Positions 37,942 through 50,415 of a stretch of DNA of 64,000 bases are shown here, in pieces. How positions within the stretch are numbered: the stretch's first letter is position 1; every line of letters starts with the position of its first letter. Source of the DNA: Mycolicibacterium tokaiense (GTDB taxonomy: Bacteria > Actinomycetota > Actinomycetes > Mycobacteriales > Mycobacteriaceae); the NCBI RefSeq assembly GCF_010725885.1, contig NZ_AP022600.1, positions 2,790,001 through 2,854,000 of the forward strand, in the 5' to 3' direction. A model generated the notes under the pieces. That model saw only the letters and a list, made by a program, of their open reading frames with translations, was not told where the DNA came from and did not search any database. A program made the translations under genes and the position numbers.

Positions 37942-40692
37942 TCAGTCGCGCCGGCGCAACTCGCGCCGCGAGGACACCCCGAGTTTGGTGAAAATGTTGC
38001 TCAGGTGCCATTCCACCGTGCGTGGGCTGATGAACAGGTGGCCGGCGATCTCGGAATTGGTGTAGCCGTCGCCGGCCAAGCGGGCGATGTACTCCTCCTG
38101 CTTGGTCAGCGCCGGCGCGGAGCTCGCGCCGCGCCTGCGCGGCGAGGTGTCGCCCGCCGCGTGGAGCTCGCGACGGGCCCGCTCGGCCAGGCCGTCCGAA
38201 CCCATGGCCACGAACATCCCATGGGCGGTGCGTAACTCGTCGCGTGCGTCGCCCCGCCGATTGGCCCGGCGCAACCACTCCCCGAAGATCAGGTGGGTGC
38301 GCGCGGTCAGGACTGTCAAGGGCGAACGGTGCAACGCTGCCAGGGCGCTGCGGTACTCGACCTCGGCCGCGGCGGTCTCGGCGATCAGTGCCCTGGCCCG
38401 CGCTGCATAGCCGAGTGCCGTTGGCGTCGGCGTGGTTTCGGCCCACAGGGCCAGCTGCTGCGCGGCCGCAGCGGCCCCGTCTGCGTCACCGGACCGCGCC
38501 GCCGCCTCCACCATCTCGTTGAGCAGGTGACCGTGCATTCCCACGTCCTCGTACTCCAGCGCTTCGGTGCAGGCTGCGTGCGCCTCGTCGTAGCGGCCCA
38601 ATCCGTTGCCGAGCACTGCCATGGAGAACAGCACGACGGTGATCTCGCTGCCCTCGCCACGTTCGGTCGCGTCGCGGATGGTGGCATCGGCGAGTGTCCG
38701 GGCGAGGTCGTGCTGTCCCCGGCAGGCGGCGAGATAGGTCTGGATGGAACGGTGCGGCGGTGCGCCGGTGGCCGCCGAGATGGCCTCCGACCGGTCCAGC
38801 AGGTCGGCGGCCCGGACGAAATCGCCTGCGGTGACGCACTGACCCGCGGTGGTGGTCAAGGCCGCCGGCAGCACCGTCAATTCCCCTGCTGCACGCAGGA
38901 GTTCGAGCTGGCGCTCGTTGACGGCATTGTAGGTGTCCTGATCGAACAGATCCAGCAGCACGCGCAGGGTGACGTCGTGGAAGCGGGGGTCGGCAGCACC
39001 GGCCTTGTCGTCGTCGAGGTAGCGCGCGATGGCGCGCTGCAACACCGGCGCCGCGGCAGTCCGGCCCTGGGTGAGTCGCAGGGCCAAGCCGTCGAGAAAG
39101 AGGTCGGCGGCGGTGACCGGCCCGGGTGGTGCGGGGGCTTGGCGGGCGGCCGCCGCGATCGCCGTCGCCGAGGACTGCTCGTCGGCGAACAGGCGCCCGA
39201 CGATCGCCGCTGCCACCAGTGCATCGAGGTAGGCCGTCCGCGCCAGCGCGGCATCGAGGTCGTGTAACCGGCGTGCCGCCGCCAGCAGCAGGGGTGGGGC
39301 GTCGCGGCCGCGGTGGGCGGCGAAGGCGATCTTCGCGCGCAGCACGTCCCCCTTGGCCTCGAGTAGCTGGTCGCCGGACCCGGTGGCCACCGTCAACAGC
39401 TGCGACGCGGCATCGTGGTCTCCGGCATCCACTTTGGCGGTGGCGGCCTGCAGGGCCCTCGTCGCCCGGAGCAGCGGGTCCGGGGTCAATTCCACGGCAT
39501 AGGTCAGGAATGCGGCCGCCGCGGCGGCGCCACCTCTCCGCCGCGCGCGCCCGGCGGACTCCACCAGCTGAACCGCGGCCGACTCCTGGGGTGCAGCCAC
39601 CGAGTGGGCCCGGTGCCAGGCGCGGTGCTCGTCAGCGCCCGGTCCCGCGACCACGTCGGCGAGGGCGCGGTGCGCCTGCCGGCGTGCCACGGCACTGGCG
39701 TGGTGGTAGACGGCTGAACGAACCAGCGGGTGGCGGAAGCGGATTCGAGGTTCGACGCTGATCAGACCCGCGCGTTCGGCGGCGACGGAGGCATCGGGGT
39801 CGATGCCCAGTTGTGTCGCCGCGGCCCAGAGCCACGCCGGGTTGCCGGTGGGCTCGGTGGCCGCCAGGAGCAGCAAGGTCTGCGTCGCCGGGGGTAGGTC
39901 GCGCAGACGGTGACCGTACTGCTGTTCGATGCGCGCGGCCACCGGTTTGGCCGCGGTGACACCGTACCCGCCCGCTAGGCGCGCGGGTGCCAGAGCACGG
40001 CGAAACTCGAGTATTGCCAGAGGGTTTCCCTCCGCCTCGGCCAGGATGTTCTCGCGCACATCCCGGTCCAGCCGTCCGGGCAGCACCGCGGTGAGCAGCG
40101 CGTCGGCATCGCGGTGGGGCAGGCTGTCGAGCCTCAGCTCAGGCAGCCCGTCCAGTTCCCGATCGGCATTCGGGGTGCGGGCAGCAAACAACATCACCAC
40201 CGGATCTGCCTGCAACCTCCTGGCGGCGAAGGTCAGCGCCTGCAGGGACGCGCGGTCGATCCATTGGGCGTCGTCGACGACGCAGACGGTGGGCCGCTGC
40301 GCACCGGCTTCGCCGAGCAGTGTCAGCCCGGCCAGGCTCACCAGCAGGCGATCCGGTGGGGGGCCCTCGCGCAGGCCCAGTGCCACCCGCAATGCATTCT
40401 TCTGCGGGTCCGGCAGCTGGTCGATGTGCCCGAGGATGGGGCCGCAGAGCTGCTGCATCCCCGCGTAGGTGAGCTCGAGTTCGGATTCCGCGCCGCCGAT
40501 CCGGATAAAGCGGAACTCACCGTCGACGGCGGTGAGGACGCTGGTGAGCAGCGCGGTTTTGCCGATCCCCGCCTCACCACGGATGACCACCACGCCGCTG
40601 TGGCCGGTGCCGGCTCGGCCGCACAGCTCGATCAGCTTCTGCTGTTCGGCCTGTCGGCCGATGAGCGTGATGTCGCCCGCTGTCGAGCCCAT
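37942..40692 (-). CDS. large LuxR-family (LAL/STAND ATPase) regulator
   Basis: A 916-residue regulator with the same plan as the one at 33227. Walker A is GEAGIGKTALL (about residue 37), Walker B VCVVDDAQWIDRAS (about 130), with a long Ala-rich helical repeat region and a C-terminal LuxR domain (LTKQEEYIARLAGDGYTNSE and ISPRTVEWHLSNIFTKLGV, about 850-910). ATG 40692 (MGSTAGDITLIGRQ) sets the start; the frame open to 40905 lacks features. It is divergent from the benzoylformate-decarboxylase operon (40874-44757) across 181 bp, its probable target, and co-transcribed with the hydrolase gene. Inducer unknown, possibly an aromatic acid. Confidence 0.9.
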   Translation of the reverse strand: MGSTAGDITLIGRQAEQQKLIELCGRAGTGHSGVVVIRGEAGIGKTALLTSVLTAVDGEFRFIRIGGAESELELTYAGMQQLCGPILGHIDQLPDPQKNALRVALGLREGPPPDRLLVSLAGLTLLGEAGAQRPTVCVVDDAQWIDRASLQALTFAARRLQADPVVMLFAARTPNADRELDGLPELRLDSLPHRDADALLTAVLPGRLDRDVRENILAEAEGNPLAILEFRRALAPARLAGGYGVTAAKPVAARIEQQYGHRLRDLPPATQTLLLLAATEPTGNPAWLWAAATQLGIDPDASVAAERAGLISVEPRIRFRHPLVRSAVYHHASAVARRQAHRALADVVAGPGADEHRAWHRAHSVAAPQESAAVQLVESAGRARRRGGAAAAAAFLTYAVELTPDPLLRATRALQAATAKVDAGDHDAASQLLTVATGSGDQLLEAKGDVLRAKIAFAAHRGRDAPPLLLAAARRLHDLDAALARTAYLDALVAAAIVGRLFADEQSSATAIAAAARQAPAPPGPVTAADLFLDGLALRLTQGRTAAAPVLQRAIARYLDDDKAGAADPRFHDVTLRVLLDLFDQDTYNAVNERQLELLRAAGELTVLPAALTTTAGQCVTAGDFVRAADLLDRSEAISAATGAPPHRSIQTYLAACRGQHDLARTLADATIRDATERGEGSEITVVLFSMAVLGNGLGRYDEAHAACTEALEYEDVGMHGHLLNEMVEAAARSGDADGAAAAAQQLALWAETTPTPTALGYAARARALIAETAAAEVEYRSALAALHRSPLTVLTARTHLIFGEWLRRANRRGDARDELRTAHGMFVAMGSDGLAERARRELHAAGDTSPRRRGASSAPALTKQEEYIARLAGDGYTNSEIAGHLFISPRTVEWHLSNIFTKLGVSSRRELRRRD

Positions 40693-40873
40693 GGCGGTGA
40701 TCTTGGCACGCGCGCCCGCCCCCGGTCGACCGAACTTGTGGGACAGACCTGCTGCGACGGGGCCACCCGGGATTCGGCAACCCCGTGGTTTTCCCGGGGT
40801 CGAAGCGACCGTCAGGCGGTGTGTGATCGCTGCGTCGAGTTCTGATGTGTGACCGAGGAAGGACTTTCCCGCG

Positions 40874-42490
40874 ATGAGCACTGCCACAACCGTCCACGAG
40901 GTCACCTACGACCTGCTCCGCGCCCTCGGGCTGACCACCGTATTCGGTAACCCGGGGTCCACCGAACAGACCTTCTTACAGGACTTTCCGGACGACTTCA
41001 CCTACGTCCTGGGTTTGCAGGAGGCGTCCGTGCTGGCCATGGCCGACGGCTACGCGCAGTCCACCGGCCGTCCCGCTCTGGTGAACCTGCACACCGCGGC
41101 CGGCACCGGCAACGCGATGGGCAGCCTGGTGGCCGCCTACCGGGCGAACACGCCGCTGATCGTCACCGCCGGCCAGCAGACCCGGGAAATGTCGCTGTAC
41201 GACCCGTATCTGAACAACCCGGACGCCGCGCTGATGCCGCAACCGTGGGTGAAGTGGGCCTATGAGCCGGTGCGGGCCGAGGACGTCCCCGCGGCGTTCA
41301 TGCGCGCGTACGCGGTGGCAACCCAACCGCCGGCCGGACCGGTGTTCCTGTCGATACCACTCGACGACTGGAACAAGCCGGCACTCGGCCCCGCCGTGGT
41401 GCGCTCGGTCAGCACGAGGGTGCAGCCCGACGCAGAGCGACTGCGCGCATTCGCGGCCCGGATCAGCCAGGCGGAGCGCCCGCTTCTGGTGCTGGGACCC
41501 GAGGTGGACCGCGCCGGCGCCTGGGACGCCGGCATAACTTTCGCCGAGAAGCTGCGGGCATCGGTGCGTGGCAGCGGGCTCTCGGACAGGTGCTCGTTCC
41601 CCGAAGACCATCCGTTGTACGGCGGCCCGCTGCCGTTGACCATCGCCGGTGTCAGCGACGCGTTGTCCGGCTTCGACCTGGTGATCGTCATCGGTGCCCA
41701 GGTATTTCGCTACTACCCCTTCGTGGCGGGGGAGTACCTGCCGGCGGGCACCGAGGTGCTGCACATCACGGGGGATCCCCACCTGGCCGCCACCGCGCCG
41801 GTGGGCGACAGTCTGCTCGGTGACATGGGCACCGTGCTCGAGCAGCTGGCCGATCTCGTCGAGGTGCCGAATGACCGGCTGTCCCCGGCCGGGCTGCGCC
41901 GCGATCTCGACCCCGACCTGCCCGCGGCCACGGCGCCGCTGGCACCCGGTGACGTCTACGCGGCGCTGAGCACGGTCAAACCCGACGATGCCGCGGTGGT
42001 CATGGAATCCACCTCCACCCTGGCCGATCTCATCACCTGGTGGCCCACGCGACGCCCGGGCAGCTTCTTCGCCACCGGCAGCGGCGGCATCGGATGGGGA
42101 GTTCCCGCCGCCGTCGGCATCGCCCTCGGTGACCGCGCGCGGGGGGTGAAGCGCACCATCGTCGCCTCGATCGGCGACGGGTCGTTCCAGTACTCGATCC
42201 AGGCGATCTGGACTGCCGCGCAGCACAAGCTGCCGATCGTGTTCGTGGTGCAGCGCAACGGTGAATACGCGGTCCTGAAATCGTTTGCGCTGCTGGAGAA
42301 AACACCGGCCGTACCCGGTATGGACCTACCCGGACTCGACATCGCCTCGCTGGCAACGGGTTACGGGTGCCGCACCGCGACGGCGGGCAGTACCGACGAC
42401 CTGGTTCGTGAATTCAAGGCGGCGCTGGCCGCCGAGGGACCCACCGTGCTGGTGGTACCCACCCAACCCCGACTTCCATTCCTGGGCTGA
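40874..42490 (+). CDS. mdlC: benzoylformate decarboxylase-like ThDP enzyme
   Basis: Thiamin-diphosphate 2-oxoacid decarboxylase of 538 residues. The segment FGNPGSTEQTFL, NLHTAAGTGNAMGSL and the run LIVTAGQQTREM closely follow Pseudomonas benzoylformate decarboxylase, including its active-site Ser26 and His70. The ThDP Glu is in LQEASVLAMADGYA and the diphosphate motif starts GDGSFQYSIQ (about 434). The second catalytic His of the Pseudomonas enzyme (FRYHQY) is replaced by Tyr (FRYYPF), so activity or substrate range may differ. It heads an operon with a tautomerase-fold protein and a GlcD-like oxidase, consistent with mandelate- or phenylglyoxylate-type acid degradation. The GGAAGGA ribosome site is strong. 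Confidence 0.85.
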   Translation: MSTATTVHEVTYDLLRALGLTTVFGNPGSTEQTFLQDFPDDFTYVLGLQEASVLAMADGYAQSTGRPALVNLHTAAGTGNAMGSLVAAYRANTPLIVTAGQQTREMSLYDPYLNNPDAALMPQPWVKWAYEPVRAEDVPAAFMRAYAVATQPPAGPVFLSIPLDDWNKPALGPAVVRSVSTRVQPDAERLRAFAARISQAERPLLVLGPEVDRAGAWDAGITFAEKLRASVRGSGLSDRCSFPEDHPLYGGPLPLTIAGVSDALSGFDLVIVIGAQVFRYYPFVAGEYLPAGTEVLHITGDPHLAATAPVGDSLLGDMGTVLEQLADLVEVPNDRLSPAGLRRDLDPDLPAATAPLAPGDVYAALSTVKPDDAAVVMESTSTLADLITWWPTRRPGSFFATGSGGIGWGVPAAVGIALGDRARGVKRTIVASIGDGSFQYSIQAIWTAAQHKLPIVFVVQRNGEYAVLKSFALLEKTPAVPGMDLPGLDIASLATGYGCRTATAGSTDDLVREFKAALAAEGPTVLVVPTQPRLPFLG

Positions 42491-44806: not shown

Positions 44807-44836
44807 TTGACGCGAGACGGACCGACTCGTTAACGT
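44807..44836 (+). promoter_or_regulatory. promoter with palindromic operator (left copy of a shared 24-bp box)
   Basis: TTGACG (44807-44812) and TAACGT (44831-44836) fit mycobacterial -35 and TANNNT -10 elements with 18 bp between. The spacer is the palindrome CGAGACGGACCGACTCG (44813-44829), symmetric at 14 of its 17 positions. The 24 bases from 44807 to 44830 recur exactly, inverted, at 49773-49796 before the DUF5996-type gene. A TetR gene adjoins that copy. This site lies 89 bp before the small lipoprotein gene. Confidence 0.72.
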
Positions 44837-44924
44837 AGGCGTCTATAACGTCGCTGCGGACTCGCTGTGGACGTACTAGGTTCTTGTTCTGTCTGATCTG
44901 CCTCGCCGAAGGAGCATCCACACC

Positions 44925-45215
44925 ATGTCGAAGACCGATCTCGCGCGGCCCTTCAACCGTCGCCTCTCTGTTGCGATCGGTGGTGGCGCCATTCTCGCGA
45001 TGATCGGCTTCACCGCGGCGTGCAGCAGTGAGAGCGAGGCTCCCGAAGAGTCCACCACCACGACCACCACGACGACGACCACCACGACGTCTGCGGAGCC
45101 GACGGTGAGCCCCACCGAGAACATGCCCAACCCCAATGTCTCGGGTGTCTTCACGCCGCCGGTCGTGGCGCCGCAGCCGACCCTCGATACAGACCGTGAC
45201 GATTACGGCAACTAG
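44925..45215 (+). CDS. small Thr-rich secreted protein, probable lipoprotein
   Basis: A 96-residue protein: basic n-region MSKTDLARPFNRRLS, hydrophobic core GGGAILAMIGF, and Cys33 in FTAACSSES, a weak but plausible lipobox. It is followed by acidic residues, a run of twelve Thr, and a Pro/Asn-rich C-terminus (NMPNPNVSGVFTPPVV). The Thr run is encoded only by ACC and ACG codons, a repeat prone to length change. Thr-rich stalks in exported mycobacterial proteins are often O-mannosylated. The gene is first downstream of the boxed promoter and 61 bp before the sedolisin gene, likely the same transcript. No function can be assigned. Confidence 0.75.
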   Translation: MSKTDLARPFNRRLSVAIGGGAILAMIGFTAACSSESEAPEESTTTTTTTTTTTTSAEPTVSPTENMPNPNVSGVFTPPVVAPQPTLDTDRDDYGN

Positions 45216-45276
45216 GCCGCGTCTCGCGGGGCCGGCCGGCTCCACGGAAGTATCGAAGCGGCGCCATCTCTGAGCC

Positions 45277-46887
45277 GTGAAGAATCGTCTGGTTCCCGTG
45301 TCGGTGCTGGCGATGTTGGTGGTGATCGCAACGTTGTCCGGTGGTGCGGGTCGGTTTCACGACACCGCCCCCGGCGGCGTCCGCCTCATCGAGGGCCCGT
45401 ACGCGTCGCTGCTCGGTGCGTCCACTGACCTGGGGCCGGCGCGTGAGCACAGCATCGAGCTCACCGCGGGCCTCACCGGCCGCGTCGAGCCGACAGGGCT
45501 GATCGACTGGGCGCAAGACCGTGCCCTGTCGGTGCGGTGGCGCCCTGGCGACGACTGGGCGGTGCTCGAAGGGGCTCCCGACGCCGTGGCAGCGGCGTTC
45601 GACGTGGCCGTGCACGACTACCGCGGCAAGCAGGGCCAACTGTTCTACGCGTCCCCGCACCAGCCCGCGGTGCCCGAGCACCTGCGCGACGAGGTGTTCG
45701 GGCTGGGCCGGATCCTCAGCTACACACCGCATCACGTGTCGGTGCCCGAGCACTTCCCGCTCGATGTGCCCGACCGGGGCCTCGGGCCGGACACCTTGCT
45801 GCGGGCCTACAACGCCGACGAACTCGCCCGCAACGGCGCCACCGGCAAGGGCGTCACCATCGTGATCTTCGGCTTCGACGGATTCCGTCAGTCCGATCTG
45901 GATATGTTCACCACGATGTTCGGCCTGCCCCCGCTGGTCCCCGAGGTGGTGGGCGGCATGCCCGATGAGATCCGCAGCGAAACATCGATGGATCTGCAAC
46001 TGGCCCATGCGATTGCCCCCGATGCCCGCAAGGTCGTGGTGAATGCGCTGCCCACCGTCGAGGGCGGTGGCGGATACCGCAAGATCGGCGAGATGCTCGA
46101 AGACACCGATCGACGTTTCCCCGGTGCGGTGTGGAGTCTGTCCATCGGATGGGGCTGTGACAAGCTGCTCACCGCGGCCGATCTGGCGCCGGTGCGCTCG
46201 GCGCTGCGCGCGGCGCAGGCCAACGGCACCACCGCCTACAGCGCCACCGGCGACCTGGCCGGCATGGAATGCCGTGGCGGCCGGGACTGGTCGTCCGCGC
46301 CGGCGGAGCAGGATGTGGGTCTCGGCTCGGTGGCGTCGGTCCCCGAGATGACCAGCGTCGGGGGCACCACACTGTCCACCGCCGCAGACGGCCAATGGGT
46401 CTCGGAGCAGACCTGGTTCGACGTGCCGCTGTCGCAGGGCACCAGCGGCGGCACCTCGGCGCTGTTCGACCTGCCCCCCTGGCAGCGCACTGCCGCCGAG
46501 GCCGTCCCGTCGGAGCGCCGCACCGGGAAGCGCATGACCCCCGACATCGCGGCGGTGGCCGACCCGTTCACCGGCGTGCGGATCGTGCTCGACGGTCAGG
46601 TGCTCGCCGGCGGCGGGACCTCGCAGTCCGCACCGATCTGGGCGGGACTGACCGCGGTGATGAACCAGTACCTGCTGGACAACAACGGCAGCCTGATCGG
46701 CGACATCAATCCGCTGCTGTACCGCATCGCCGAGGGGGCACCGCGACCTGCGTTTCGCGACGTCACCCTGGGCGGCAATGCTGTCGACGACGCCGGGCCG
46801 GGCTATGACCTGGTGACCGGGCTCGGCACCCCGGACATCGACAACCTGGTACGCAACATCGCCATCGCCCAGCAGGTGCAGGGCTGA
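45277..46887 (+). CDS. S53 family (sedolisin/kumamolisin-like) serine-carboxyl peptidase
   Basis: A 536-residue exported protease. A signal peptide or anchor lies at residues 1-24. The pro-domain (about 30-165) has the pro-kumamolisin fold pattern (GLTGRVEPTGLIDWAQ), followed by the catalytic domain. The Glu/Asp pair is ETSMDLQLAHAIAP (about 231-235), the oxyanion Asp is in YSATGDLAG, the nucleophile Ser in GGTSQSAPIWAG (about 450), and the Ca2+ site near the end is RDVTLGGN and GPGYDLVTGLGTPD. Sedolisins act at acid pH after removing the pro-domain. GTG 45277 starts the frame. Its stop overlaps the zinc-ribbon membrane gene, which suggests joint action at the cell surface. Confidence 0.9.
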   Translation: MKNRLVPVSVLAMLVVIATLSGGAGRFHDTAPGGVRLIEGPYASLLGASTDLGPAREHSIELTAGLTGRVEPTGLIDWAQDRALSVRWRPGDDWAVLEGAPDAVAAAFDVAVHDYRGKQGQLFYASPHQPAVPEHLRDEVFGLGRILSYTPHHVSVPEHFPLDVPDRGLGPDTLLRAYNADELARNGATGKGVTIVIFGFDGFRQSDLDMFTTMFGLPPLVPEVVGGMPDEIRSETSMDLQLAHAIAPDARKVVVNALPTVEGGGGYRKIGEMLEDTDRRFPGAVWSLSIGWGCDKLLTAADLAPVRSALRAAQANGTTAYSATGDLAGMECRGGRDWSSAPAEQDVGLGSVASVPEMTSVGGTTLSTAADGQWVSEQTWFDVPLSQGTSGGTSALFDLPPWQRTAAEAVPSERRTGKRMTPDIAAVADPFTGVRIVLDGQVLAGGGTSQSAPIWAGLTAVMNQYLLDNNGSLIGDINPLLYRIAEGAPRPAFRDVTLGGNAVDDAGPGYDLVTGLGTPDIDNLVRNIAIAQQVQG

Positions 46888-48824
46888 TGACTGCACCCAG
46901 CGCGCCGGGCATGATGGAATGTCAGGTCTGCGAAATGGACGTGCCCGCAGGCGAATACTGCGGGCAGTGTGGTGTGCCGCTGGACGAGCACCGCCGCGGC
47001 GACGGCCCACACTGGCTGCGGGCGCGCGCCTTCAGCGCCGCCTCCGGACAACGGTTGTTGACGCCGTCGCTGACCAGCTCGCTGTTTCCGCACCTGACAC
47101 CGCGGGCCCGCATCGTGTTCCTGATGGGACTGGGGATGCTGGTGGCGGCGTTGGTGATCGTCACGGTGCTGCGCATGCCGGCCGGGTTGATCGCGGTGGC
47201 CTCCTTCGGCCTGCCGTTGTTGTTCGGCCTCTACCTCCGCGAATCCGGTGTCTCCCGCGACATCCCGCGCAGCACGCTGCTGGTGACGACCGGGCTGGGC
47301 ATCATCCTGGGCGTGGGGTGGGCCGTGCTCACCGGCGCCGTGGTGGCCCGCGCCTACGGCGTACCGCTGGGGGCCGGCATTGCCGGTGCGCGGATCCTGC
47401 GCGACGGCCTCGGCGTGCCGGTGGGCAGCATGCTCCTGATGTTGGTCCCTGCGCTGGTGGCGCGGTTCTCCTGGCGGGGCGGCGACCGGGAGGCGCTGGA
47501 CGGCTACGCCATCGGTGCGCTGGGAGCTCTGACCTTCACGGCGGCGGCCACCCTGACCCGGCTGGCGCCGCAGTTCACCAGCGGCCTGATCAACCGCGCC
47601 CGGCCGCTGGACGGGCTGCTGGTCGAAGCCGGTATCCGCGGGATCGCCATGCCGTTGACCGCCGCCGCGGTGGGCGGTCTGATCGGTACCGCGCTCTGGT
47701 TCACCCGCCCACCGAGCAAGCAGGGCACCCATCGCGGGTTCCTGCGGGGCGTGTTGGTGGCGATCGCGGTGGTGGTCATCGTGATCTATGCGTCACTGGG
47801 TGTGGTCGACGTCGCCCGGTTGCCCCAGTTGTGGCTGTTGGTAGTCCATCTCATGCTGAGCGCGCTGGCGTTGTTCGCGTTGCGGGTGGGCTTGCACCTG
47901 GCCCTGTTGCACGAGGCGCAGGACACCACCAGCAGTGACGATCCGATTCTGTGCGTCGAGTGCAACCACGTGGTGCCGGATGCGCCATTCTGCGCGAACT
48001 GCGGCGCGGCCATGCGGGCCTGCTCGCGGGGGTCCCGCCGGACCCGGCGGGAAGAGCGTCCGATCCAGGTGGTCGAGGATTCTGCCGCGGCCGCCGGAGA
48101 CATCAAGGTCGGACTGCTGCCCGGGTATTCGATCCATCCGGGCGCCTTCGAGGCGGCGCGACCTGCGTCGGCGCAGTTCCACACCGTGGCGCTGGCCGTC
48201 GGAGTCGCGATCGTCGTGGTGGCCGGCGGACTGGTCGGGCTCTCGGGCCTGATCTCCCGGCCCGCCCCGAAGTACGTCTGCCCGCCCGAGTGCGGCAGTC
48301 CGCCGCTGTCGCGCGCGGTGGAGGTCAATCCCCGGTTCACCGCCGCGGACGGCGCGTTCTCCGTGTCGTATCCGGCCCCCGGCGCGGCGTATGCGGTCTC
48401 CCAGCGTGACGATGGGGTGACCGCCGTCCTGCAGGCCGGTGATGGCGGCACCATGCAGTTGGTGAGCCGCCCTGCTGCGGGCCGCGACGCCCGGCAGGTG
48501 GCGTTCGATCTGCTGAACGAGACCTACCCGGACACCAAGACCGCCTACGAGATTCCCAACACCATGGTCGGGTATCAACCCGGGTACGGCTTGGCGGCCG
48601 ACGTCTGGCCGCAGGGTGCGATGAGCAATTCCACCCGGATGCGCATCATCGTGATGGTCGCGGTGAAGAACGACCTGGCGCTGATCGCCGGCGCGGTGGG
48701 GCCCTACCGCGCCTTCGGTCCGGACTTCGGGTCCGGCAAGCCGTCGGCTGCGGGCCTGCAACTGGCCCTGGACATGGGCAAGTACGTCAACAGTTTCACC
48801 TGGCGCGGCGATCCGCCCCGTTAG
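46887..48824 (+). CDS. zinc-ribbon polytopic membrane protein with external C-terminal domain
   Basis: A 645-residue protein I cannot place in a named family. A four-Cys zinc ribbon (C12, C15, C25, C28) is followed by about eight membrane helices between residues 75 and 335. A second zinc ribbon (CVECNHVVPDAPFCANCG) lies near 355-372, a further helix near 430-452, and then a roughly 190-residue domain, probably outside the cell, starting with YVCPPECG. The arrangement suggests a membrane-embedded scaffold or sensor with cytoplasmic metal-binding modules. It shares a base with the sedolisin stop (TGATG), so the two are translationally coupled. Its end overlaps the convergent DUF5996-type gene by 4 bp. 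It might regulate or be cut by the protease; that is inference. Confidence 0.8.
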   Translation: MTAPSAPGMMECQVCEMDVPAGEYCGQCGVPLDEHRRGDGPHWLRARAFSAASGQRLLTPSLTSSLFPHLTPRARIVFLMGLGMLVAALVIVTVLRMPAGLIAVASFGLPLLFGLYLRESGVSRDIPRSTLLVTTGLGIILGVGWAVLTGAVVARAYGVPLGAGIAGARILRDGLGVPVGSMLLMLVPALVARFSWRGGDREALDGYAIGALGALTFTAAATLTRLAPQFTSGLINRARPLDGLLVEAGIRGIAMPLTAAAVGGLIGTALWFTRPPSKQGTHRGFLRGVLVAIAVVVIVIYASLGVVDVARLPQLWLLVVHLMLSALALFALRVGLHLALLHEAQDTTSSDDPILCVECNHVVPDAPFCANCGAAMRACSRGSRRTRREERPIQVVEDSAAAAGDIKVGLLPGYSIHPGAFEAARPASAQFHTVALAVGVAIVVVAGGLVGLSGLISRPAPKYVCPPECGSPPLSRAVEVNPRFTAADGAFSVSYPAPGAAYAVSQRDDGVTAVLQAGDGGTMQLVSRPAAGRDARQVAFDLLNETYPDTKTAYEIPNTMVGYQPGYGLAADVWPQGAMSNSTRMRIIVMVAVKNDLALIAGAVGPYRAFGPDFGSGKPSAAGLQLALDMGKYVNSFTWRGDPPR

Positions 48825-49759
48825 GGCAACAGGTGTTCGTCCCAGCGGTGCGGATCGAGCTCGAGCGCAGCGCGGTCCCACCCACCCAGTTCGGCGGCCG
48901 CATCGTAGGTGTACTGCAGAAAGTCCAGCACGCACTGATCCGGATCTGCTGCGGCGCGGGCGGTTTCGTACGGGAGCAGGTACTGCCGTAGCTCGGGGTG
49001 GTAGAACACGCCTTCGGGAAGGCCGGGGAATTCGGCGAAGCCCTCCGGTTCGGGATAGGCGTAGGAGTAGAACGCGCCCTCCTCGCCCCCACCGGGCCAG
49101 AATCCGCAGCTGCTCAGCTCGTGGGAGTAGGCCTCGACCATCACCCAGTCGGCGCAGTTGGGCGTGCCGCCGGGATGCTCCGGTGCGGGGCGGCCCGAGA
49201 ACCGGCTGCAGGCCATGTCGAAGGAACCCCAGAAGAAGTGGACGGGGCTGACCTTGCCGGCGAACCGGGACCGGAACGCTGTGATCACCCGGTCGGCCTG
49301 GATGAGCTGCTGCCAGAACGTGCGGGCGGCTGCGGGGTCGTAGCCGATGTGGTGGTCCTCGGCGAAGGGAATGGCGGGGTCGACTTCGTTGGGCCGCTTG
49401 GTGATCTGCGCCGCGATACCCACGCGGTCGAGCATGGCCACGGTGTCGTCGTGGAACTGCGCCACCGTCCGGTTGCCGAGTTCCAGTCGGCCGGAGCTGC
49501 CGTCGTTCACCCGCACGGCCAGCACGTGGTCGACGAAGTCGAACTCCAGGTCGAACACCCGGGTGTCCACCGGGATGGCCGAGGTGGTCAACCCCCGCGA
49601 GGAGACGTAGAGCGGAGCCTGCCACCAGTGATTGACCAGCGGCGCGTGGGCCAACCTGATCTTGCCGACGATCTGGGACCACATGTGGAGCGTGCGGCGG
49701 GTGTCCGCCCAGTCGTCGACGCGCAGAGCCGGCCATCCAGAAGGCGGGGAAGAGGTCAT
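48821..49759 (-). CDS. DUF5996 family protein
   Basis: A 312-residue cytoplasmic protein with the DUF5996 landmarks: WSQIVGKIRLAHAPLVNHWWQ near residue 28, YVSSRGLTTSAIP, then SPVHFFWGSFDMACSRFSGRPAP and the Trp/His-rich AYSHELSSCGFWPG. Aromatic, His and Asp conservation suggests an enzyme, but no activity is known for the family. ATG 49759 lies eight bases after the -10 TACCGT of a promoter, so the message is probably leaderless. That promoter shares 24 identical bases with the one before the lipoprotein gene. It is divergent from a TetR gene, its likely repressor. Confidence 0.85.
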   Translation of the reverse strand: MTSSPPSGWPALRVDDWADTRRTLHMWSQIVGKIRLAHAPLVNHWWQAPLYVSSRGLTTSAIPVDTRVFDLEFDFVDHVLAVRVNDGSSGRLELGNRTVAQFHDDTVAMLDRVGIAAQITKRPNEVDPAIPFAEDHHIGYDPAAARTFWQQLIQADRVITAFRSRFAGKVSPVHFFWGSFDMACSRFSGRPAPEHPGGTPNCADWVMVEAYSHELSSCGFWPGGGEEGAFYSYAYPEPEGFAEFPGLPEGVFYHPELRQYLLPYETARAAADPDQCVLDFLQYTYDAAAELGGWDRAALELDPHRWDEHLLP

Positions 49760-49767
49760 ACCCGGGA

Positions 49768-49796
49768 ACGGTACGAGTCGGTCCGTCTCGCGTCAA
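49768..49796 (-). promoter_or_regulatory. promoter with palindromic operator (right copy of the shared 24-bp box)
   Basis: On the minus strand TTGACG (49796-49791) and TACCGT (49773-49768) are 17 bp apart, an excellent mycobacterial housekeeping promoter. The whole spacer is the palindrome CGAGACGGACCGACTCG. Positions 49773-49796 are the exact inverse of 44807-44830. The DUF5996-type ATG is eight bases past the -10. The TetR gene starts 41 bp away on the plus strand, so the palindrome is its probable operator. Confidence 0.78.
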
Positions 49797-49836
49797 TGGC
49801 CCGGGTACGCCCGGGTTCGTCGGCTAGTGTTTTCAG

Positions 49837-50415
49837 ATGCCTGCCAACGCTCCGGACCCGGGGCGGCGCAACGAACAATCGCGTCGTGCCATCCTCGACG
49901 CGTGTATCTCGCTGGTCGGCGAGGCCGGTTATGAGAACGTCTCCATCGAGGCCATCGCACGGCGGGCGTGCGTGGGCAAGCAGACCATCTACCGCTGGTG
50001 GCCGTCCAAGGGCGCGGTGATCCTCGAGGCTGCGATGCAGAGCCTGGATCCGGTGGTCACGTTTCCGGACACCGGCAACATCATCGCCGATCTGCGCACT
50101 CAGATGTGCAAGATCCTGGAGGTGATCACCACCACCGGCTACGGCGCTGCCTACCAGGGGCTGATCGCCGCGTGTCAGTCCGACCCCGACCTGATGCGTG
50201 CCGTCTTCGACCAGATCATCAAACCCAGCATCACGCAGTTCGGGGAACGGGCAGCGCTGGCGCAGGCCCGCGGTGAGATCCGGGCCGACGCCGACGTGGA
50301 GACCCTGCGCGACGTGCTCTACGGGTTCATCGAATACCGGCTGATCCACGGTATGCCCCTGGAGCTCCGCCACATCGACGCGAGCCTGGCCATCGCGTTC
50401 CACGGCGTGTGCTGA
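49837..50415 (+). CDS. TetR-family transcriptional regulator
   Basis: A 192-residue repressor. The N-terminal helix-turn-helix (AILDACISLVGEAGYENVSI and IARRACVGKQTIYRWWPSK, residues 18-60) is canonical for TetR. The helical C-terminal domain binds an unknown ligand (TetR_C-like, with LRTQMCKILEV and FGERAALAQARGEIR). A TAGTGT -10 element ends six bases before ATG 49837, suggesting a leaderless message. Its nearest palindrome is the CGAGACGGACCGACTCG spacer of the DUF5996 promoter, present again at 44813. It is thus a candidate local master regulator of both convergent operons. Confidence 0.88.
   Translation: MPANAPDPGRRNEQSRRAILDACISLVGEAGYENVSIEAIARRACVGKQTIYRWWPSKGAVILEAAMQSLDPVVTFPDTGNIIADLRTQMCKILEVITTTGYGAAYQGLIAACQSDPDLMRAVFDQIIKPSITQFGERAALAQARGEIRADADVETLRDVLYGFIEYRLIHGMPLELRHIDASLAIAFHGVC

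Follow-up and report, generated by a model that had tools for sequence, protein, structure and literature searches.

Two inward-facing copies of one palindromic promoter and a candidate TetR-controlled sedolisin and DUF5996 module in Mycolicibacterium tokaiense

Two identical 24-base promoter segments face each other across 5 kb of the Mycolicibacterium tokaiense genome and enclose a secreted-protease operon and a convergent DUF5996 gene, which raises the question of what protein reads them and what brought these genes together. The stretch analysed here, called the window, comprises 64,000 nucleotides of the RefSeq assembly GCF_010725885.1 (contig NZ_AP022600.1, positions 2,790,001 to 2,854,000); its genome is designated G000 and other G numbers denote genomes of the same genus. 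As judged by sequence comparison, the TetR-family protein encoded at 49837-50415, just outside the right copy, is very probably a repressor whose operator lies in the -35/-10 spacer of both inward promoters. The fuller reading, in which this TetR is a local repressor that is released by a ligand with the co-induction of both gene sets, is one that we hold with good, although not full, confidence.

Twin putative operator-promoters at the borders of the module

The segment TTGACGCGAGACGGACCGACTCGT occupies 44807-44830 on the plus strand and recurs at 49796-49773 on the minus strand with all 24 bases equal, and direct reading hence confirms the identity claimed in a preliminary description of this locus. 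The match ends at base 25 and the flanks differ, meaning that the likeness does not extend into a longer duplicated segment. Within each copy lies a 17-base palindromic box, CGAGnCGGnCCGnCTCG, which occupies the spacer between TTGACG and a TANNNT -10 element, and the -10 hexamers claimed earlier are indeed present (TAACGT on the left, TACCGT on the right). Exact inverted 24-mers are expected by chance 1.3e-4 times per 64 kb of the same composition and 7.7e-7 times per 5 kb, and the other exact inverted pairs of at least 18 bases in the window are one 18-mer (31204/51195) and two local hairpin-type matches. A scan of the whole genome of 6,328,149 bases with the box pattern of the preliminary description returned three exact places, namely the two 24-mers and position 3221555, where a related palindrome, CGAGGCGGTCCGCCTCG, lies within a predicted open reading frame, reaches an expectation value (E) of 0.61 with the operator model described below and is taken as a chance match. 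When one mismatch was allowed, 16 places were found versus 16 for the reversed control pattern, so the weaker matches are background and the exact places alone stand out.

The right box sits in the 77 bases separating the DUF5996 gene from the divergent TetR gene, and the putative right -10 stands 8 bases from the DUF5996 ATG, a distance that points to a leaderless mRNA or one with almost no leader. The right box region also belongs to the TetR gene, which may thus be counted as a fifth and autoregulated gene of the regulon. Past the right box and ahead of the TetR start, positions 49800-49815 read CCCGGGTACGCCCGGG with two CCCGGG palindromes; several orthologs have a second operator at this place.

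In the proposed mechanism, TetR as a dimer or a pair of dimers would bind the spacer palindrome at both promoters and keep RNA polymerase from engaging either of them. A small ligand in the TetR_C_11 pocket would release TetR, upon which DUF5996 from the right and the lipoprotein, sedolisin and membrane protein from the left would be jointly induced, possibly along with TetR itself. These steps, from spacer binding and repression to ligand-driven joint release and autoregulation, are inferred. The purpose might be a response to cell-envelope stress or to a substrate, with the exported protease and lipoprotein acting outside and DUF5996 inside.

Co-occurrence of the proposed operator with the TetR regulator

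At a threshold of E<=1e-50, TetR orthologs were found as 16 genes in 14 of 198 genus genomes. At least one CGGNCCG is present within 170 bp upstream of 13 of the 16 ortholog genes versus 10 among 50 genes of nine sedolisin stretches that served as control. As befits a local divergent TetR, the region between the regulator and its divergent neighbour holds a palindrome that is conserved among the orthologs. Several of these upstream regions have two tandem sites, one again between TTGAC and an opposite-strand -10, and the stretch KQTIYRWW.S.GAV is invariant across 17 aligned TetRs. Of the 14 genomes that have the TetR, 10 encode it and DUF5996 on a single fetched stretch, with only a DUF5996 fragment, at a contig end, in G028.

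An operator model, R1, was built from sequence only with ten operator-promoters hand-chosen from 18 (16 TetR upstream regions and two left boxes), and its ten rows align gap-free in one register, TTGAC and the core showing little or no variation. At E<=0.05 this model gave 17 matches, spread over 10 of the 14 genomes with the TetR. Ten of the matches are the training sites; of the remaining seven, that of G076 shares its 32 bases with the training row of G208, and two (G028 contig 192 and G014 contig 13) are located at genes for TetRs like Ms6564 of M. smegmatis. Each of the 17 matches has a wider-group TetR no more than 12 kb away, while 14 TetR-negative genomes, hand-picked from 184, yielded none at this threshold, their best E being 0.10. 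The matches in G000 are the right box, the left box and the box of a paralogous TetR, with the next place at E 0.61.

A strict pattern, TTGACNCGAGACGGNCCG, which is missing in nine of the 14 genomes of the ortholog search, has 15 occurrences across 396 genus genomes, distributed over 12 of them, as compared to one site for its reversed control. The TetR is encoded in each of these 12 genomes: five were known from the ortholog search, and the seven others have it at 68-76% identity, in G326 as an incomplete copy on a different contig. Eight sites directly adjoin the TetR gene, two correspond to the left boxes of G000 and G080, and one, on a short contig of G326, precedes a DUF5996 fragment by 1.3 kb. 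Four sites have no module gene within 1.5 kb and lie at about 5 kb (G012, G285, G303) or about 7.6 kb (G340) from the TetR of the same genome. Extra boxes at about 5-12 kb from TetR were also noticed in L264 (G340), L265 (G303), L171 (G191) and L276 (G285); genes near them resemble, by eye, the extracytoplasmic function (ECF) sigma factor of other TetR neighbourhoods, which suggests that TetR may control a sigma factor in these four genomes.

For the wider family, the best 80 of at least 557 confirmed TetR relatives (34-71% identity, some near-duplicates, from Actinobacteria and Myxococcota according to record titles) were scanned over 220 bp upstream and the first 30 bases, using other predicted genes of the same loci as control. 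The box pattern of the preliminary description, with at most two mismatches, precedes 58 of the 80 versus 16 of 708 other genes. The motif CGAGACGNNNCGTCTCG precedes 73 of the 80 versus 3 of 708, a figure that is partly fitted because the motif was read off the same 80 sequences. The earlier proposal that this TetR controls both boxes is hence favoured by its presence in all strict-pattern genomes, the lack of R1 matches at the threshold in the 14 TetR-negative genomes, the conservation of the boxes in G080 and the 58 wider relatives. A TetR 71% identical to that of the window is found on contigs labelled Solirubrobacter (L184, L185), a genus distant from mycobacteria, and may reflect either gene transfer or contamination.

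Several observations weigh against control of both boxes by this TetR. Four of the 14 TetR-positive genomes (G097, G066, G113, G198) have no R1 match at 0.05, and the TetR genes of G097, G113 and G198, three of the 16, have no CGGNCCG upstream. Among 26 further TetR relatives (L020-L045, 33-41% identical), CGAGACGNNNCGTCTCG with at most two mismatches precedes seven, including L041 and L044, which are close relatives of Ms6564, and is missing in 19; thus, this operator belongs to part of the TetR group. In the window, the second CGGNCCG operator, seen ahead of the TetR start in many orthologs, is missing and a CCCGGG repeat takes its place, which makes TetR autoregulation less certain and the weakest part of the mechanism. 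G191, G210 and G165 have the TetR and a sedolisin operon at separate places, the operon being without a box, so the sedolisin link appears lineage-specific, resting on two genomes. Finally, the paralogous TetR could bind the same boxes.

Alternative readings and the history of the module

The paralogous TetR (G000:C1:1839200-1839745; L046, L124), 66% identical and encoded outside the window with its own spacer operator, carries the same recognition stretch, and the similar box in its promoter region, TTGACTCGGTGCGGACCGTCTCGTATCGT, is one of the ten R1 rows and was recovered by R1. Even so, it seems unlikely that the module boxes are bound mainly by this paralog, or by both TetRs with the two loci forming one cross-talking regulon, given that the left arm of the paralog box differs (CGGTGCGG for CGAGACGG) and that G080 has both module boxes yet one TetR only at E<=1e-50. 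The paralog gene is flanked by genes whose products group with cutinase, SnoaL, zinc-dehydrogenase and ECF sigma proteins, and it is divergent from a LuxR-type AAA regulator.

Activation instead of repression, with a TetR-like protein turning the promoters on from the palindrome, has a precedent in Ms4022, reported in the available part of PMC4895335 as an activating TetR protein; however, the site fills the -35/-10 spacer of TTGACG promoters, where a bound dimer should exclude polymerase, and we regard activation as very improbable. That two segments separated by 5 kb are exactly alike would also fit a short mobile or gene-conversion repeat of no regulatory meaning. This reading has next to no likelihood and was rejected on the count of exact places, since the box does not recur at many unrelated sites and the 6.33 Mb genome holds just the two copies and one related palindrome in an open reading frame; moreover, both box positions are conserved in G080 and a similar motif precedes many TetR relatives in Actinobacteria and Myxococcota. 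Repression by the local TetR at both promoters is retained as the preferred reading.

How the two gene sets came under this repressor can be approached from the distribution of the box. The closest TetR, 84% identical, is that of G080, which has all five genes arranged as in the window, together with both boxes; its left 24-mer is identical and its right one has one change in 24, and the left intergenic region is mostly diverged outside the 24-mer, with a different gene beyond. Sedolisin matches were obtained in 99 genomes and DUF5996 matches in 63, and 30 loci of each were examined, with the DUF5996 locus L107 beginning at a contig end and its upstream region missing. A box lies within 500 bp upstream of the sedolisin locus in two of the 30 (G000 and G080) and within 250 bp of DUF5996 in four of the 30 (G000, G080, G191, G210), all beside a divergent TetR. 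On this distribution, DUF5996 looks like the older target, and the lipoprotein-sedolisin-membrane protein operon looks like a later recruit in the lineage of G000 and G080. The preliminary description had proposed a four-gene TetR regulon whose box and five genes might co-occur in related genomes. Comparison lends support to such a regulon, with TetR perhaps as a fifth member, and G080 has the whole module with both boxes; the part that did not hold generally is the protease operon, which appears to be a target in this lineage only.

Taken more broadly, it is somewhat more probable than the contrary that a large TetR clade, spanning Actinobacteria and Myxococcota, reads a nearly fixed operator, CGAGACGNNNCGTCTCG, as its targets turn over, and that the window presents a secreted-protease operon captured through a second operator copy 5 kb from the repressor, giving a convergent, co-induced module.

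Related systems and the genes of the module

Among known regulators, Ms6564 of M. smegmatis (PDB 4JKZ; DNA complex 4JL3) belongs to the same wider group as the window TetR (E 3.4e-20 to 4jkz) and has the stretch KQTIYRWWPS in common with it. The window TetR is not a close ortholog of Ms6564: it matches 4jkz with 76 bits over residues 10-139, as compared to 198 bits over 113 residues for L044 (G020), to which it is 37.6% identical over 133 residues. Upstream of the Ms6564 relatives L044 and L041 (G021, 87% identical to L044) stands CGAGACGCTACGTCTCG, and the less close Ms6564-like TetRs L170 (G028, 72%) and L153 (G014, 68%) are preceded by CGAGACGGACCGTCTCG and CGAGACGGTCCGTCTCG, respectively. 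According to the available part of PMC4150764, Ms6564 binds 31 bp as a dimer of dimers and is a master regulator of DNA damage/repair genes. The window TetR, for comparison, has three R1 sites at E<=0.05 in its genome, each of them belonging to the module or to the paralog TetR, a count that other site types could escape as R1 was built on promoter-embedded sites. The divergently oriented mycobacterial TetR repressors KstR, KstR2 and BkaR, as described in the available part of the survey PMC4482099, resemble the window TetR in having a divergent neighbour within 200 bp, a palindromic motif and usually a small local regulon, but the window differs from them by a second identical operator 5 kb off that brings in a convergent operon.

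The features of the module are collected in Table 1. TetR membership of the regulator is given by PF00440 (43.9 bits, cutoff 24) and PF16859 (80.6 bits, cutoff 32). The protease domain of the sedolisin aligns with kumamolisin-As (peptidase S53, PDB 1SIO; E 7.6e-28), and the window protein differs from kumamolisin and sedolisin in its operon partner, the zinc-ribbon-like membrane protein, for which a Pfam search returned no family. The membrane-protein start overlaps the sedolisin stop (TGATG), and the sole Pfam match of the sedolisin is to the pro-domain, under the cutoff (20.8 vs 23.5). The Glu, Asp, oxyanion Asp and Ser positions of the S53 domain are included in the alignment, and we take them to be catalytic. 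The lipoprotein-like protein has LppK and WKL-lipoprotein matches, both far under their cutoffs. DUF5996, whose gene is convergent with that of the membrane protein with tails overlapping by 4 bases, has a full-length Pfam match (residues 9-300, 436 bits); its fold model, with a mean predicted local distance difference test score of 66.6, gave a best Foldseek E of 0.23 and no usable match to suggest a function.

Table 1. Coordinates of the operator-promoters and genes of the module in the window
Feature	Position	Strand	Remarks
Left operator-promoter	44807..44830	+	-35 TTGACG, box 44813-44829, then T; inward-facing; identical 24-mer in G080
Putative left -10 TAACGT	44831..44836	+	18-base spacer (17 in G080); from sequence
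Small lipoprotein-like protein	44925..45215	+	96 amino acids; hydrophobic stretch ending at Cys
Sedolisin (S53-like) protease	45277..46887	+	536 amino acids; GTG start; N-terminal hydrophobic stretch
Membrane protein	46887..48824	+	645 amino acids; eight hydrophobic stretches (Kyte-Doolittle); two zinc-ribbon-like CxxC...CxxC motifs
DUF5996 protein	48821..49759	-	312 amino acids; PF19459, E 6e-131
Putative right -10 TACCGT	49768..49773	-	17-base spacer; from sequence
Right operator-promoter	49773..49796	-	Box 49774-49790; TTGACG -35; proposed to drive DUF5996
Putative TetR-promoter -10 TAGTGT	49825..49830	+	TAGTGT also before TetR genes of G191, G012, G210, G097
TetR-family regulator	49837..50415	+	192 amino acids; TetR_N and TetR_C_11; proposed binder of both boxes

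In other genomes, the neighbours of TetR include genes for short-chain dehydrogenase/reductase, pirin, ECF sigma, cutinase, zinc-dehydrogenase (quinone-reductase-like), LuxR-type and Rieske-domain proteins. A response to electrophiles or quinones was considered from such neighbours and is not asserted, as those genes are absent from the module of the window; a literature search on pirin, quinone and TetR, judged by title, gave nothing relevant. A LuxR-type AAA regulator-like gene is present in the window (at least 38002-40905), about 9 kb from TetR, and groups with the LuxR-type AAA regulators that neighbour TetR in other genomes; near it there is no exact box, and one match with two mismatches lies inside the gene at 38169.

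Local TetR repressors with palindromic operators are a kind of system already known, and what appears to be new is the target set under such a switch. In the literature searched, the coverage of which mostly excluded subscription papers, no description of this target set and no mention of DUF5996 was found. A search on sedolisin, TetR and mycobacteria, judged by title and the start of the abstract, gave none on such a system, and searching by the operator letters returned nothing relevant among the titles listed, the short strings matching mostly primers.

For the TetR clade, of which one structurally studied relative (Ms6564) was found, the analysis provides a testable operator, and for the DUF5996 protein and the sedolisin operon it proposes a tie to one switch. 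The boxless operons of G191, G210 and G165, together with the left boxes of G000 and G080, offer an outgroup series, with two genomes on the gained side, for the growth of a regulon by operator gain. The ligand of the window TetR, if found, would point to the role of the target genes.

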